Source of the DNA: Bacteroidaceae bacterium
GTDB lineage: Bacteria > Bacteroidota > Bacteroidia > Bacteroidales > Bacteroidaceae
Reading direction: 5' to 3'
Assembly: GCA_016280445.1 (NCBI GenBank)
Contig: JAEEGS010000071.1
Coordinates: 1 to 64,000 of the forward strand
Length of the DNA: 64,000 nucleotides
Within the stretch, counting starts at the first letter, position 1. Each line of letters begins with the position of its first letter. Under the pieces are notes generated by a model, which was given only the letters and a program-made list of their open reading frames with translations, was not told where the DNA came from and ran no database searches. A program made the translations under genes and the position numbers. This document shows positions 7,793 through 15,719 of the stretch, in pieces.

Positions 7793-8566
7793 CTACTTGA
7801 TGTTCTTGCGAATCTTTGTCAGGTATTGCTGCATGTGCTCCTCGTCGCGTGTGTCGATGATTTCGATGATTTCTTTCATCTCCTTGCGGATTTGCTCGAC
7901 TTGCCCTTTGGTGTAGGGGTTGAAGAGGATTTCGCGCAGGAGGGTGTCGTCTTCAGAGAGGACGCCTTTGGCGATTTTCATGTGGCGCTTGAAGGTGGTG
8001 CCGGGGGCATCCTGATGCTTCATGACGGCGGCGAAGGCGAAGGTGGAGATGAAGGGGATGGAGAGGGAGTAGGCTACGGTCTGGTCGTGCTCTTCGAAGG
8101 AGTATTCGAAGATGTTGAGACCGAGACGGGAGTAGAGGTCTTTGAAGAAGCAGCGTCCCATGTAGTCGCCTTCGTTGATGATGATGGCGTTCTCGTCGCT
8201 CAGTTTGCCGAGGTTGGCAAAGGTGGGACCGAACATGGGGTGGGTGCTCACGTAGTGGAAGCCGCTGGCTTCGTAGTATTCCTTGAAGCCTGTCTTCACC
8301 GACGAGATGTCGGAGAGGATGCACGACTTGGGGAGGTGGGGTATCACCTGGTTGAACACTTGCAGGGTGTATTTGAGGCTGACGGCGTTGATGACCAGTT
8401 CTGGCTCGAAGGCGTCTATCTCGTCGAGCGTGGTGAATCGCTGGGTGTTATACATGAATCGGAGACGCTTGGGGTCGATGTCGTATACCGCCACTTCGTG
8501 GTCGAATGACAGCAGGTCGGTGAAGAATGAACCCATCTTGCCTGCTCCTAATATCAGAATCTTCAT
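7793..8566 (-). CDS. tyrA: Prephenate dehydrogenase
   Basis: MKILILGAGKMGSFFTDLL Rossmann start, SDISSVKTG, STHPMFGPTF motifs; operon context. Confidence 0.9.
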   Translation of the reverse strand: MKILILGAGKMGSFFTDLLSFDHEVAVYDIDPKRLRFMYNTQRFTTLDEIDAFEPELVINAVSLKYTLQVFNQVIPHLPKSCILSDISSVKTGFKEYYEASGFHYVSTHPMFGPTFANLGKLSDENAIIINEGDYMGRCFFKDLYSRLGLNIFEYSFEEHDQTVAYSLSIPFISTFAFAAVMKHQDAPGTTFKRHMKIAKGVLSEDDTLLREILFNPYTKGQVEQIRKEMKEIIEIIDTRDEEHMQQYLTKIRKNIK

Positions 8567-8585: not shown

Positions 8586-8690
8586 GATTGAAGAATTGAA
8601 GAATTGAAAAATTGAAGTTTTTGGCTGGCGCGATGTTAGAACACCCCGTATGGCAACTTCAATTTTTCAATTTTTCAATTTTTCAATTTT
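8586..8690. repeat. Inverted array of 9-bp ATTGAARAA units
   Basis: GATTGAAGAATTGAAGAATTGAAAAATTGAAG opposite CTTCAATTTTTCAATTTTTCAATTTTTCAATTT. Confidence 0.8.
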
Positions 8691-9753
8691 ATTTGTTGAT
8701 GATTTCAATTTGCTGGTGCACACTTTCTTCGTGGATGCTCTCGAAGACTTTGGCGACGAAGTCGGGGCTCATGCCGCAGAGGGAGCCTTGCACACCGCGC
8801 TTGGACAGGATTTCGTTGTAGCGGACGGCTTGCAGCACGGTCATGTTGTGCTCTTTCTTGTAGTGGCCAATCTCGCGGCACACTCGCATACGCTTGGCCA
8901 GAATCTCCATGAGTTGGTTGTCCAGTTCGTCAATCTGCTTGCGCATGCTGGCCAATCCTTCGGTGGTGGTGTGCTCGTCGCGGATGATGAGGAGCGAGAG
9001 GATGTAGTCGAGCACTTCTGGGGTGACTTGCTGCTTGGCGTCGCTCCATGCTTTGTCGGGGTCGCAGTGGGCTTCTACAATCAGTCCGTCGAAACCGAGG
9101 TCCATCGACTGCTGGCAGAGTGGGGCGATGAGTTCGCGGCGGCCACCGATGTGTGAGGGGTCGCAGATGATGGGCAGGTTGGGGATGCGGCGGTGCAGTT
9201 CGATGGGAATCTGCCACATCGGGGCATTGCGGTATATCTTCTGCTCGTAACTGGAGAAGCCGCGGTGGATGGCTCCCATACGCTTCACGCCTGCCTGGTT
9301 GATGCGCTCTAAGGCTCCAATCCACAGTTCGATGTCGGGGTTGACGGGGTTCTTCACGAACACGGGCACGTCCACACCTTTCAAGGCGTCGGCCAATGCC
9401 TGCACGGCAAAGGGGTTGGCTGTGGTGCGGGCACCAATCCAAAGGATGTCCATGTCGTATTTCAGCGCCAGTTCCACGTGTTCGGGTGTGGCTACCTCGG
9501 TGGAGATGAGCATGTGGGTCTCTTCCTTCACTTGCTTCATCCATGGGAGTGCCTTCTCGCCGTTGCCTTCGAAGCCTCCTGGCTTGGTGCGTGGCTTCCA
9601 AACTCCTGCGCGGAAGTTGTGGCAGCCTTTCATGGCGAGTTCACGGGCGGTTTTCATCACTTGTTCCTCCGTCTCTGCGGAGCATGGGCCTGCAATCACG
9701 AACGGACGTTCGTTGTCGCTTGGCAGACCTAATGGTTGTAAATCGAGTTCCAT
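8689..9753 (-). CDS. Bifunctional 3-deoxy-7-phosphoheptulonate synthase / chorismate mutase
   Basis: RPFVIAGPCSAETEEQV...FRAGVWKPRT plus C-terminal chorismate mutase domain (IDELDNQLMEILAKRMRVCREIGHYKKEHNM). Confidence 0.93.
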   Translation of the reverse strand: MELDLQPLGLPSDNERPFVIAGPCSAETEEQVMKTARELAMKGCHNFRAGVWKPRTKPGGFEGNGEKALPWMKQVKEETHMLISTEVATPEHVELALKYDMDILWIGARTTANPFAVQALADALKGVDVPVFVKNPVNPDIELWIGALERINQAGVKRMGAIHRGFSSYEQKIYRNAPMWQIPIELHRRIPNLPIICDPSHIGGRRELIAPLCQQSMDLGFDGLIVEAHCDPDKAWSDAKQQVTPEVLDYILSLLIIRDEHTTTEGLASMRKQIDELDNQLMEILAKRMRVCREIGHYKKEHNMTVLQAVRYNEILSKRGVQGSLCGMSPDFVAKVFESIHEESVHQQIEIINK

Positions 9754-9757
9754 ATAT

Positions 9758-9905
9758 GACCCCCTCCCCGCTCCCCCTGTTGAGGGGGAGAGTAGAATGT
9801 TGGTGGGGAGGATTCTACTTGTATATTATTTTGTTGTTATTGATTCTTGTTTTGTATGTTGTGGAGGTAACCACCCCCTCTCTCACAGGGAGGGTGAAGG
9901 GAAGG
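9758..9905. repeat. About 148-bp dispersed repeat, copy A
   Basis: GACCCCCTCCCCGCTCCCCCTGTTGAGGGGGAG...CACAGGGAGGG; near-identical to 11066-11213. Confidence 0.95.
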
Positions 9906-11061
9906 CCTCCTTTATTCTCTGCAATGCAGTGAGCATCTTCTCGTCTTTGGCACAAAGCGAGATGCGGATGTAGCGTTTGCCGTTGGAGCCGAAGATGAAG
10001 CCGGGGGTGATGAAGACGCGGGCTTCGTGGAGCACCTTCTCGGTCAGGTCTTCGACGTCGGCGATGCTGTCGGGGATGCGTCCCCAGAGGAACATGCCTT
10101 GCTGCGTGGGGTCGAAGGTGCAGCCGAGGGTGGTCATGATTTGCTCGGCTATCTTGCGACGGGTGGCGTAGGTCTCGATGTTGGCGTGGGTGTGCCATGC
10201 TTCGGTGTTGTCGTAGGCTTGAGCGGCTGCGAGTTGCAGGGGACGGAAGGTGCCGGAGTCGATGTTGCTCTTGATTTTCAGAATCCACTGCACGAAGGTG
10301 CTGTTGGTGGCGAGCATACCGACACGCCATCCGGGCATGTTGTGGCTCTTCGACATGGAGTTGAATTCGATGCAGCACTCTTTGGCTCCTGGCACTTGGA
10401 GGATGCTCAGGTGTTCGTCGCGGTTGAGGATGAAGGAGTAGGGGTTGTCGTTCACCACCACGATGTTGTGTTTCCGGGCGAATGCGACTATCTTCTCATA
10501 CAGTTCGCGGGTGGCACGTCCACCTGTGGGCATATTGGGGTAGTTCGTCCACATGAGTTTCACGCCTGTCAGGTCCATCGCTTCCAACTGCTCGAAGTCG
10601 GGTTGCCAGCCGTTGGTCTCCATCAGGTCGTAGTTCACGATTTGCTGACCGAGTATCTTGCTGAGCGATGTGTAGGTGGGGTAGCCGGGATTGGGCACCA
10701 GCACTTTGTCGCCTGGGTTGCACAGTGCCAAGGTTACATGCAGGATGCCTTCCTTGCTGCCGATGAGTGGCTGAATCTCGGTGGCTGGGTCGAGTTCCAC
10801 ATTATACCATCTCTTGTAGAATCGGGCCATTGCCTTGCGCAGTTCGGGTATGCCCACTGTGGGCTGATAGCCGTGTGCGTCGGGGCGTTTGGCGTTCTCG
10901 CAGAGCACGTCGATGGTTTCTGCACTGGGAGGCATATCGGGTGAGCCGATGGCAAGCGAGATGATGTCCTTGCCTTCTGCGTTCAATTGTGCCACTTCCT
11001 TTAATTTTCTCGAAAAGTAGTATTCTGAGACTAACGAGAGTCTGTCTGCTGGCTGTATCAT
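9883..11061 (-). CDS. Pyridoxal phosphate-dependent aminotransferase
   Basis: Class I/II aminotransferase motifs (NYPNMPTG, VNDNPYSF, NSMSKSHNMPGWRVG); inside aromatic amino acid operon. Confidence 0.9.
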   Translation of the reverse strand: MIQPADRLSLVSEYYFSRKLKEVAQLNAEGKDIISLAIGSPDMPPSAETIDVLCENAKRPDAHGYQPTVGIPELRKAMARFYKRWYNVELDPATEIQPLIGSKEGILHVTLALCNPGDKVLVPNPGYPTYTSLSKILGQQIVNYDLMETNGWQPDFEQLEAMDLTGVKLMWTNYPNMPTGGRATRELYEKIVAFARKHNIVVVNDNPYSFILNRDEHLSILQVPGAKECCIEFNSMSKSHNMPGWRVGMLATNSTFVQWILKIKSNIDSGTFRPLQLAAAQAYDNTEAWHTHANIETYATRRKIAEQIMTTLGCTFDPTQQGMFLWGRIPDSIADVEDLTEKVLHEARVFITPGFIFGSNGKRYIRISLCAKDEKMLTALQRIKEAFPSPSL

Positions 11062-11065
11062 GAAA

Positions 11066-11213
11066 GACCCCCTCCCCGCTCCCCCTGTTGAGGGGGAGAG
11101 TAGAATGTTGGTGGGGAGGATTCTACTTGTATATTATTTTGTTGTTATTGATTCTTGTTTTGTATGTTGTGGAGGTAACCACCCCCTCCCTCACAGGGAG
11201 GATGAGGGGAGGG
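11066..11213. repeat. About 148-bp dispersed repeat, copy B
   Basis: Near-identical direct copy of 9758-9905, offset 1308 bp. Confidence 0.95.
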
Positions 11214-12048
11214 TTTCCTTTCCTTCCTTGTATTCACCCAATATCTTCAGTTGCTTGGTCAGGGGTCTGACGGCGTCGATGCTCTGGCGGTAGCGGGTGT
11301 AATCGTCGTACATCACGTCGATGTAGAACATATACTCCCACTCTCTGCCAATGATGGGCAATGACTGAATCTTGGTGAGGTTGATTTTGTAGAACGAGAA
11401 GATGCTCAACACCTGCGAGAGTGAACCTTCGCTGTGGGGAAGGCTGAACACGATGCTTGATTTGTTGGACTTGCTGGGCACACTCAGTTCCTCTGCCACC
11501 CAAGGGTCAGCCACAATCAGGAAGCGGGTGAAGTTGTGCTTGTTCGTCTCGATGCCCTCTTGCAGAATTTTCATTCCGTAGAGTGGGGCAGCGTATTTCG
11601 AGCAGATGGCGGCATGACCTCTCAGCGCGTTCTCGCTGATGTTTTTGGCAGAGCCTGCTGTGTCGTCGGTCTCCACAATCTTGAACTGGGGATGCTGTTT
11701 CAGGAAGTTTCTGCACTGCATCAGCGCCACAGGGTGTGAGTTCACTTCTGTGATGTCTTCCCAGTCGTCTTCTGGCAGACACATGATGCTGTGTGAGATG
11801 CGGAGTTTGTGCTCGCCCACAATCTGCATGCCGCTGTCGCGCAGCAGTTCGTAGTTGTGCAGCAGCGACCCCGCGATGGTGTTTTCTATCGCCACCATGC
11901 CAATCACTTTCGAGTCTTTCTTCATCTCCTCGAACACCTCTTCGAATGTGTCGCAACAAATCAGTTCGATGTCTTCACCTTCGAAGTAATAGTGGCTGGC
12001 TACGTCGTGGTAACTTCCCACCTCTCCTTGTATTGCTACTCTTCTCAT
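11191..12048 (-). CDS. pheA: Prephenate dehydratase
   Basis: RVAIQGEVGSYHDVASHYYF; AIENTIAGSLLHNYELL; C-terminal ACT domain. Confidence 0.92.
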   Translation of the reverse strand: MRRVAIQGEVGSYHDVASHYYFEGEDIELICCDTFEEVFEEMKKDSKVIGMVAIENTIAGSLLHNYELLRDSGMQIVGEHKLRISHSIMCLPEDDWEDITEVNSHPVALMQCRNFLKQHPQFKIVETDDTAGSAKNISENALRGHAAICSKYAAPLYGMKILQEGIETNKHNFTRFLIVADPWVAEELSVPSKSNKSSIVFSLPHSEGSLSQVLSIFSFYKINLTKIQSLPIIGREWEYMFYIDVMYDDYTRYRQSIDAVRPLTKQLKILGEYKEGKETLPSSSL

Positions 12049-12077
12049 ATATTATATAATGTATAGTTTGCTCCACC

Positions 12078-12105
12078 AAAAAGCCCCACTCATCAGAGCG
12101 GGGCT
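12078..12105 (-). terminator. Intrinsic terminator in the pheA leader (attenuator)
   Basis: On minus: AGCCCCGCT-CTGATG-AGTGGGGCT followed by TTTTTGG, 30 nt upstream of the pheA ATG. Confidence 0.88.
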
Positions 12106-12162
12106 ATATTGTTTCACTATTGTTGTTGCATTGTCTTCCTATGAACACATAACTACCCGCTC

Positions 12163-12219
12163 TTACTTCTTGCTAAAGTAAAAGTAAAAATAGTAATATG
12201 TGTTAAACAATGACTTCAT
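12163..12219 (-). CDS. Phe/Tyr-rich attenuation leader peptide, 18 aa
   Basis: ATG AAG TCA TTG TTT AAC ACA TAT TAC TAT TTT TAC TTT TAC TTT AGC AAG AAG TAA = MKSLFNTYYYFYFYFSKK. Confidence 0.85.
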   Translation of the reverse strand: MKSLFNTYYYFYFYFSKK

Positions 12220-12284
12220 CTCTTTAAGATTGAAAAATTGAAGAATTGAAAAATTGAAGTTTTTCGTTTCAACTATTTTCGCTG

Positions 12285-12292
12285 CAAAAGTA
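12285..12292 (-). promoter_or_regulatory. -7 element (TACTTTTG) for the pheA operon
   Basis: TACTTTTG on minus with TTG about 19 bp upstream. Confidence 0.65.
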
Positions 12293-12459
12293 CATACTTT
12301 CCCCGAAACAACAAACATTTTTCAAGAAAAAATGCGGTTTTTGTGGAAAAAAGTGCAGATTTCGTAGAGAAAGAGTTACGAGTTTTCTCTTTTTTTGAGA
12401 GAAATGTGTACCTTTGTCCCGTTTTTCGGATTAGGGCAAATTACTATCTTATTACAAAC

Positions 12460-13063: not shown

Positions 13064-15604
13064 TTATTTCCGATGGAGAATCTTCTTCCCCTTTTTGATG
13101 AGGATGCCAGGGCTGAGAGGCTTTCCTTGGATGTAGCGTCCGTAGAGGTCATAGGTCTTTTCGTCTGTTAGGACTGGTTGTTTGTTAACTGTCTGGATGT
13201 TCGTGGCCTCGATGATGCGGTGGCGAAGGGCGGAACGGACACCGTAGTAGGCGGGTTTCTTTTCCACACCCTCCGTGTAGAGCAGTGGAAGGGATGCCTC
13301 TCTCCAACTGTTGTTGTCCTTCAATCCCCAGATGACGAGATTGGGGCAGTTGTCGTTGTTGAGCATGATGTCGGTGATGACGCGGTAGTTGCGTGCCTGT
13401 TCCTCGTAGTTGGCCTCAGAAACGTATGGGATGCCCATGTCCAACTCGGTGATGATGCATTGAAGTCCTGCGTCGGCAAAACGCTGGATGGTCTTGGCCA
13501 GTTTGACGGAATCGACATCGCCGATGGAGAAGTGGCATTGCAATCCTACGCCGTCGATAGGAATGTCGCTGTTCTTCAGACGCATGGCCAGATTGTAGAA
13601 TGCGACAGACTTGGCTTTTCCCTGCATCTCCACGCCATAGTCGTTCAGGTAGAGCAGGGCATCGGGATCTGCACGATGGGCATAGACGAAAGCGGAGTCG
13701 ATGTAGTCTTCGCCGATGGCGCGCATCCACACGCTTTCGCGCAGTTCGTAGCCTTCAGGATTGGTGCGCACGGTTGTCTGGTCGTCGGACAGGCATTCGT
13801 TCACCACATCCCATTCGGTCACTTTGCCTTTGAAGTGTGTCACCACGTTGGTGATATGGGTCTCCATAATCTTCAAGGCTTCTGCGCGGCTCCAGTTTTT
13901 GTCGTTCTTCTTGCCGTCGCTTGACACCCATGTGGGCAATTGGGCATGCCATACGAGACAGTGCCCTCTCATCTTCATCTTGTTGTTTTGTGCAAAGTTC
14001 ACCAAGTTGTCGGCTGCCCAATAGTTGAACTCGCCACGTGAAGGTTCCAGTTCGTCGAATTTCATCTGGTTTTCTGCCACGAGCATATTGAACTGCTGTT
14101 TCACCTCTTTCGTCTCGGCCAATCCTGCGTTGGTGATGTCGTTTTTCCAAGTGGAGATGGCTGTGCCGATGTATTTCCCGTTCTGCGCGGCATATTCACG
14201 CAAAGTGGTCTTGTCGGTTTGGTCGTTGATGCCATCATCGTAGAAGGCACCCATGTGCTCTTTCTCTTCTTCCTCTGGGTCTTCGGGGTTCTCTGGTTCA
14301 TCTGAATCATTGAGCGACACGAGGCGCAGCCCGACGGTATATTCTCCGTTTTCTTCTTTCTCTACAATCTCCCAAGTGTAGCGTTCTGGCTTTTTCAGTT
14401 CGAAGTGCCAGTCGCCTGTTTTGCTCTTGGCGGTGAGCAGGTGGAATTCGTCTCCCACTTTCACGCCAGCATCCTTGGCCAACGCAATTTGGATGAGCGG
14501 CATCTTGTCGCTGGTCGAGAAGTCTTGTGTCATGTCGAAGTATTTGACGGTTCCGTTGACCATCAGTTGGTCATAATCGGATGCCGATTCAATCTTGAAG
14601 CGCAACACTGATTGGGGTCGCACGAAGAGGTTGGTGTTTTTTGATGTGGTGGCATAATTCTTCAGGGTGAGTGTACCCACCGCGTCATCGCCTGGTTCTA
14701 TCGTGCCATAGTTGTCCACGGTTCCAGCGATGCTTCCCGTACCGCCAAGCACACCACCTTCGAACACATATGCAATGGCCTCGTTGACATTTTGTTTTGC
14801 ACCCAAGGCTCCTCTCAGTTTCTTGCTCTCGGCTTCAAGACGGTCGTTCATCACCAGAACTCGGCCGTCCGTCACTCGCAAGCAACCTGTCAGATAGTTG
14901 TTGTTGCCTGTGATGCGGCAGGTGCCTTTGCCTTCCTTGATGATGCCCAAAGGATGCGTGTCGCTATAGTCGGGTGGGGCGATTTTTCCTGCCAATGTGG
15001 CATCTGCTCCAGAATAGCCCACCAGAAAGTATGCCGCACGTGTGTTCGTTTTCATATATCCAATAATGGATGAACCCACTTCCGTGTTCAGGTCGCCAAT
15101 GCGGAAACCGGCTCCATTTGTGTTGGCCTCACAAAGGAGAGTGGCGCCTGTGTGCAAAGTGACGTGGCATCGCTCCATCGAGTTGTTCACCTTGCCCGAC
15201 TTGATGTCGCTCTCCATGTTCTCGGGCGAAAAACTCTGGCCGCCATGCGCCAGCACCACACCATAGAGTGTTAAATTAGGTGAGTTCTCCTCGAAAGGAT
15301 AAATATGTACGTTTCCCGTGAAGTTCGTCCAGTTTGGCCAAGTCTCACCCTTTGCTGTGCCCAAATAGCAACGTTCGCCTCCGGCATACAGGTTCAGCGT
15401 GCCTTTTCCTGTGATGGTGGAACTGAAATAGCAATAGCGTGCCATCTTCACATCCACTTTCTTGAAAGAGGACAAATAGAGGGATTCATCGTATGATCTG
15501 TAATTGTTGGAAGAGTTGTTGCCACTGATGTCGATAGTGTTTTGAGCCCATGCTGGCATCAGTAACAAGAAAGCAATAAGTGTTAGTAATGTCTTCTTTT
15601 TCAT
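13064..15604 (-). CDS. Secreted GH10 endo-1,4-beta-xylanase with N-terminal autotransporter-like beta-repeat region and T9SS-like C-terminus
   Basis: Signal peptide; WDVVNECL acid/base and ITELDMGIP nucleophile regions of GH10; C-terminal YDLYGRYIQGKPLSPGILIKKGKKILH. Confidence 0.9.
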   Translation of the reverse strand: MKKKTLLTLIAFLLLMPAWAQNTIDISGNNSSNNYRSYDESLYLSSFKKVDVKMARYCYFSSTITGKGTLNLYAGGERCYLGTAKGETWPNWTNFTGNVHIYPFEENSPNLTLYGVVLAHGGQSFSPENMESDIKSGKVNNSMERCHVTLHTGATLLCEANTNGAGFRIGDLNTEVGSSIIGYMKTNTRAAYFLVGYSGADATLAGKIAPPDYSDTHPLGIIKEGKGTCRITGNNNYLTGCLRVTDGRVLVMNDRLEAESKKLRGALGAKQNVNEAIAYVFEGGVLGGTGSIAGTVDNYGTIEPGDDAVGTLTLKNYATTSKNTNLFVRPQSVLRFKIESASDYDQLMVNGTVKYFDMTQDFSTSDKMPLIQIALAKDAGVKVGDEFHLLTAKSKTGDWHFELKKPERYTWEIVEKEENGEYTVGLRLVSLNDSDEPENPEDPEEEEKEHMGAFYDDGINDQTDKTTLREYAAQNGKYIGTAISTWKNDITNAGLAETKEVKQQFNMLVAENQMKFDELEPSRGEFNYWAADNLVNFAQNNKMKMRGHCLVWHAQLPTWVSSDGKKNDKNWSRAEALKIMETHITNVVTHFKGKVTEWDVVNECLSDDQTTVRTNPEGYELRESVWMRAIGEDYIDSAFVYAHRADPDALLYLNDYGVEMQGKAKSVAFYNLAMRLKNSDIPIDGVGLQCHFSIGDVDSVKLAKTIQRFADAGLQCIITELDMGIPYVSEANYEEQARNYRVITDIMLNNDNCPNLVIWGLKDNNSWREASLPLLYTEGVEKKPAYYGVRSALRHRIIEATNIQTVNKQPVLTDEKTYDLYGRYIQGKPLSPGILIKKGKKILHRK

Positions 15605-15719
15605 GTCTTTTCTTGATGAAACGCCACAAAAGTACATATAAATAATGAATTATTAGGTCGAAAGAGGAAGAAATGACATTTATTTGGTGGTTTATTTTGC
15701 CAAATAACGAAAAAAACGT

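Follow-up and report, generated by a model that had tools for sequence, protein, structure and literature searches.

A candidate ribosome-mediated attenuator with mixed phenylalanine and tyrosine codons upstream of the pheA operon in a class of Bacteroidota

The pheL attenuator of Escherichia coli responds to phenylalanine only and controls one enzyme. Other enterobacterial leaders, such as thrL and ilvL (Thr/Ile and Ile/Val/Leu, respectively), illustrate that one leader can sense several amino acids of a joint pathway. The leader described here, from the genome of a Bacteroidaceae bacterium, resembles the enterobacterial pheL-pheA system (RF01859) in its Phe-rich leader peptide, its 1:2, 2:3, and 3:4 stems, its intrinsic terminator, and its predicted control of pheA. 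It differs in that the codons are a mixture of Phe and Tyr and the operon comprises four genes for Phe/Tyr synthesis, and neither its sequence nor its promoter is related to those of pheL-pheA. The predicted sensing of more than one amino acid is shared with thrL and ilvL, although those leaders read amino acids other than Phe/Tyr.

For the Bacteroidetes/Chlorobi, some attenuators were reportedly predicted in a 2004 comparative study by Vitreschak et al. in FEMS Microbiol Lett, and we know of no Phe/Tyr case among those predictions. The Bacteroid-trp RNA (RF01692), a published leader RNA family (Weinberg 2010, PMC2864571), is likewise a leader RNA of this phylum, but has Trp codons and belongs to the trp operon. 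Leader-peptide-like short ORFs are also mentioned in general terms in a map of Bacteroides thetaiotaomicron (PMC7366714). In Flavobacterium, a 2021 transcriptome study (PMC9723704) described a structured 5' element that precedes pheA, has no Rfam hit, and is conserved in Flavobacteriaceae, and also noted "strong clues" for attenuation by leader peptides before amino acid operons. The main text of that study presents the pheA element without a leader sequence, an assignment of Phe/Tyr codons, or covariation, and describes conservation within Flavobacteriaceae only, whereas conservation here is class-wide. An earlier note on this DNA had stated that no experimentally described Bacteroidetes case was known for this operon, which mostly holds, the qualification being the uncharacterised Flavobacteriaceae element as presented in that main text. 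Attenuators that use tyrosine codons for control did not turn up in a literature search.

The window, that is, the whole stretch of DNA analysed, is 64,000 nucleotides long (contig JAEEGS010000071.1). On its minus strand it carries pheA (prephenate dehydratase, 11191–12048; NCBIfam PRK11898, E 5e-61), a class I/II aminotransferase gene (9883–11061), aroG/Q (DAHP synthase fused to chorismate mutase, 8689–9753), and tyrA (prephenate dehydrogenase, 7793–8566). These identities are NCBIfam best hits that fall below NCBI's curated cut-offs, with synteny as additional evidence for the last three genes. The same gene order was found in all 66 of the 66 relatives with enough sequence to see it, and the pheA-aminotransferase-aroG/Q-tyrA operon named in the earlier note is borne out by the best hits and this synteny. 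Elsewhere in the window, positions 13064–15637 (minus strand) encode an 857-amino-acid protein whose C-terminal half, judged by eye from the translation, resembles a GH10-type xylanase behind adhesin-like repeats.

Upstream of pheA, also on the minus strand, a promoter of the form TTTG-N19-TACTTTTG spans 12315–12285, its −33 element TTTG (12312–12315) lying 19 nt upstream of the −7 element TACTTTTG (12285–12292; Bacteroidota TAnnTTTG). An 18-codon ORF follows (12163–12219), assigned from its sequence, its conservation, and a shuffle null, which encodes the leader peptide MKSLFNTYYYFYFYFSKK and ends in a stop codon. Its regulatory codons, TAT TAC TAT TTT TAC TTT TAC TTT, form an uninterrupted run of eight Tyr/Phe codons (12175–12198), and the ORF has no Trp codon. 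Strand 2 (12144–12169) contains the antiterminator 5' strand as its core, AGAGCGGG (12163–12156), the first base of which is the last base of the leader stop codon and which begins 11 nt after the last Tyr/Phe codon. This core is complementary at 8 of 8 positions to CCCGCTCT (12102–12095), where strand 3, the terminator 5' arm AGCCCCGCTC (12096–12105), pairs with strand 2. Strand 4 (12091–12082) and a U tract to 12078 complete the terminator (strand 4 and tract together 12078–12091, from folding, the consensus scan, and covariation). The whole terminator, AGCCCCGCTC-TGAT-GAGTGGGGCT-TTTT (12105–12078), was also recovered by the consensus scan and lies ~30 nt before the pheA ATG (12048); its U tract is short, with TTTT after the stem and then GG. 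The −7 element, the ORF with its codon run, the overlap of AGAGCGGG with the stop codon, the terminator, and the 8/8 complement had all been put forward in the earlier note, and the sequence agrees with it on each.

Its description of the 1:2 pairing as a small TACTT...AAGTA hairpin, by contrast, was wrong. Strand 1 (12175–12204, minus strand), placed by folding and by the species-swap test described below, forms a long stem with 12169–12144 that spans every codon of the Tyr/Phe run (−20.6 kcal/mol when folded alone, z −5.4). The 238-nt leader as a whole folds at −59.6 kcal/mol, compared with an average of −40.6 for shuffled sequences (z −5.2; 0/200 shuffles as good). Folded alone, the 2:3 pairing reaches −20.9 kcal/mol and the 3:4 terminator hairpin −19.9 kcal/mol (z −5.6). 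Three alternative pairings are thus found in this leader, and its terminator and antiterminator are predicted to be mutually exclusive, as in an attenuator.

We consider it highly probable that this leader works by ribosome-mediated transcription attenuation, sensing the charging of Phe-tRNA and Tyr-tRNA and controlling the joint Phe/Tyr operon. RNA polymerase would begin ~7 nt past the −7 box, and a ribosome would translate MKSLFNTYYYFYFYFSKK. When Phe or Tyr is scarce, this ribosome would stall in the eight-codon run and sit on strand 1, leaving strand 2 with its core AGAGCGGG to pair with strand 3, so that no terminator forms and the operon is transcribed. When both amino acids are plentiful, the ribosome would arrive at the stop codon and mask strand 2, the 3:4 hairpin and U tract would form, and transcription would end ~30 nt before pheA. 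If the leader were not translated, the long 1:2 stem would form and 3:4 would again be free to terminate. We infer leader translation, premature termination, and readthrough upon Phe/Tyr starvation as parts of this mechanism, which is very likely that of classical attenuation, judging from the sequence features compared here.

Conservation was assessed in two sets of loci. A GTDB genome scan with PheA yielded a close set of 80 loci (protein identity 75–97%). A wider set, from phylum and order samples, comprised the 500-nt upstream regions of 100 additional pheA genes. One of these regions (L099) is cut short by the contig end; 79 usable loci belong to the same GTDB class and 20 come from the rest of the phylum. 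As the earlier note had proposed, related pheA leaders share a short ORF rich in Phe/Tyr (F/Y) codons: it is present in 78/80 close loci, the exceptions being L023, whose contig stops 37 nt upstream, and L031, which truly lacks an F/Y leader. Among the divergent loci of the same class, 71 of 79 have an F/Y leader and a terminator by a scan that counts ATG starts only and needs the terminator too; two of the remaining eight (L102 and L180) have GTG-start leaders by eye, and about six are truly without. The attenuator therefore appears to be conserved class-wide in Bacteroidota. Outside the class but in the same phylum, an F/Y leader with a terminator was found in only 5/20 loci, and the pheA genes of those five are unusually similar. 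These five loci (L142–L146), from other families listed outside the class, combine a class-like pheA with an F/Y leader, and the 15 other genomes have none; it is possible that the operon moved horizontally together with its attenuator. Three loci of one family (L138, L139, and L169; f9) are without the leader and have a short upstream frame with ...DPEVVNKSYPSFWKH... or close to it before pheA, and pheA may use another promoter there.

The codon run itself is not a chance feature, since 134/178 leaders have a short ORF with at least seven of eight F/Y residues, compared with only 0.06% of their dinucleotide shuffles. Two or more Tyr codons are present in 157/160 leaders and two or more Phe codons in 160/160, and a Trp codon is also present in approximately one-third of divergent leaders. 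Leader and terminator occur together in 154/178 loci. An element that works mainly on pheA translation or mRNA decay, and not on transcription termination, would be consistent with the few relatives whose T tract is interrupted (such as L010 and L013, with GGGGCTTATACA). Nonetheless, a T-rich tract follows strand 4 in nearly all loci (a qualifying terminator is present for 166/175 F/Y ORFs), and pheA typically starts ~27 nt past the hairpin rather than within it, which makes such a mode of action very unlikely.

Pairing between the strands was examined without an alignment by hybridising strand 2 (the region after the F/Y run) in silico with strand 3 of its own or of another species. For 2:3, own pairs were more stable than swapped pairs in both the divergent loci (−14.4 versus −9.5 kcal/mol, sd 0.28) and the close loci (−17.4 versus −15.6, sd 0.21), and 0/2000 permutations were as good in either set; shuffled strand 2 with strand 3 gave −7.2 (divergent) and −8.8 (close). 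The same held for 1:2, with −19.0 (own) versus −13.6 (swapped, sd 0.36) in the divergent loci, computed with empty regions left out, and −22.7 versus −18.5 in the close loci (0/2000 permutations each). Changing 2:3 partners are visible by eye, for example GAGCGGG/CCCGCTC in the window clade, GAGCAGGA/TCCTGCTT in L018, GAGCGGA/TCCGCTC in L080, and CGAGACC/GGTCTCG in L124. Column covariation in 40 aligned close leaders showed 88% pairing and four doubly changed pairs for 2:3, and 95% pairing and five doubly changed pairs for 3:4, both with scores exceeding every shuffle and all slid versions. On fixed columns the 1:2 signal was weak (69% paired, score barely above shuffles), probably owing to indels in the codon run. 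Hence, the covarying terminator and antiterminator stems for which the earlier note had suggested looking are found, both in the swap tests and as doubly changed 2:3 and 3:4 pairs.

A median of 10 nt (10–90% range, 7–13 nt) separates the last F/Y codon from the base at which strand 2 starts to pair, and in ~95% of loci the leader stop codon is located at or past the start of strand 2. Its exact position differs between clades. Among loci L001–L080, the stop precedes strand 2 in the window clade (AAGTAAGAGCGGG), directly before GAGCGGG, and lies past strand 2 in Bacteroides/Phocaeicola (GAAGTGAAGCGGGAG...), where the ORF continues through strand 2 (SNEVKREF...). The bases under the shifted stop codon are still alignable, and the stop appears to have moved during the evolution of these loci. 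Either way, a terminating ribosome would be on or beyond strand 2. This spacing and the covariation are what would be expected as signatures of ribosome-mediated attenuation.

The same measurements bear on whether there is a switch at all. The leader peptide is strongly hydrophobic and aromatic and its sequence is kept among close relatives, as might be expected if the ORF encoded an independently functioning small membrane peptide beside a constitutive terminator or stability element. Across the class, however, the peptide sequence drifts except in its F/Y content, while the complementarity of strands 2 and 3 and the 7–13 nt spacing are kept, and nothing about a functional peptide would require covariation between the bases behind it and a terminator; we regard this explanation as extremely unlikely. 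Arrest of the nascent peptide on sensing free Phe/Tyr in the exit tunnel, in the manner of TnaC with Trp, instead of sensing of charged tRNA, could draw on the uninterrupted aromatic run and the near invariance of the TTTTACTTTTACTTT core in close relatives, but is scarcely credible. Families differ widely in the order and number of F/Y residues and in all the residues around them, unlike in arrest peptides, and the invariant nucleotides of the core are accounted for by 1:2 pairing. Moreover, arrest by excess amino acid would give readthrough with abundant product, opposite to what a biosynthetic operon requires.

Attenuation at pheA would also depend on transcription of the leader, for which the promoter was compared across loci. 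Sigma-70 consensus promoter scans are inapplicable to Bacteroidota. In the 150 nt that precede the leader ATG, TAnnTTTG was present in 77/79 close and 53/76 divergent loci, compared with 9% in shuffled sequence. TTTG or TTG together with TAnnTTTG was found upstream of the leader ATG in 75/79 close loci. Given a frequency so far above that of shuffled sequence, it is very probable that a conserved promoter of its own drives transcription of the leader.

No family in Rfam covers the pheA leader element. The Phe_leader model (RF01859) scored 20.0 bits for the window and 29.8 bits for Phocaeicola vulgatus, below its gathering score of 55 bits, and Bacteroid-trp (RF01692; gathering score 49 bits) gave no hit to the pheA leader (E ≤ 10). 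BTnc231 (RF04180) was considered as the attenuated pheA leader and rejected, its full-length alignment being weak (12.5 versus 80.4 bits) and a true member in another genome (G237) lying ~250 kb from pheA. We built an alignment (A1) and a covariance model (R1). R1, whose training set includes the window element, found that element as the sole strong match in its own genome, and it matched 60/81 family genomes, with one match per genome in all but one. Secondary matches in the window genome (E 0.11 and worse) were judged to be due to chance; the best of these, L183, is a gene-end terminator on inspection.

In nine loci (L083, L086, L087, L115, L118, L119, L123, L131, and L141), the 500 nt upstream of pheA hold two complete units, one behind the other, and each unit possesses an F/Y ORF and a terminator of its own. 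The −7 box, where found, is upstream of the first unit, and L086 has one further TAnnTTTG inside the first leader ORF. Within these loci, the 2:3 pairing of each unit is mostly stronger than cross-pairs between units (exceptions, L119, L123, and L141), which suggests that RNA polymerase would have to clear two Phe/Tyr checkpoints before pheA. The Salmonella mgtCBR leader (PMC3641672) similarly combines two short ORFs with tandem attenuators, but there other signals act via two different ORFs, whereas the tandem units here are both Phe/Tyr units of the same design. We think it reasonably probable that this is an ancient, class-wide RNA family that reads Phe and Tyr jointly via mixed codon runs and was serially duplicated in several lineages, posing two checkpoints for RNA polymerase. 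If so, tandem units would represent serial gating and give a steeper response. The naturally occurring tandem copies lend themselves to testing what a second attenuator in series contributes.

Elsewhere in the same genome, outside the window (L190:1719–1880; G000:C28), a leader with a run of Trp codons, MTKKFNAYWWWRNLGFKKS, and a terminator precede trpB, the first gene of the trp operon, in a layout similar to that of the pheA leader. This leader was recovered by a short-ORF scan. It scored 43.1 bits locally against RF01692, below the 49-bit cut-off, and a scan of the whole window genome with RF01692 returned nothing above thresholds, indicating that whole-genome family scans miss real cases. 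With this leader and terminator before trpB, attenuation is probably used more than once in the organism. At hisG of the same genome, which lies closely behind another gene, no convincing His leader was found.

What appears to be new here is the joint sensing of Phe and Tyr, the conservation throughout the class, and the occurrence of tandem copies. As far as the literature could be searched, this would be the first well-supported leader with tyrosine codons as the sensor, and the A1 alignment and R1 covariance model could seed an Rfam family. Regulation of aromatic amino acid synthesis is poorly described in Bacteroidota, which are dominant gut and environmental bacteria. The leader provides a proposed mechanism for the whole class, with its strand boundaries, control codons, and promoter mapped.
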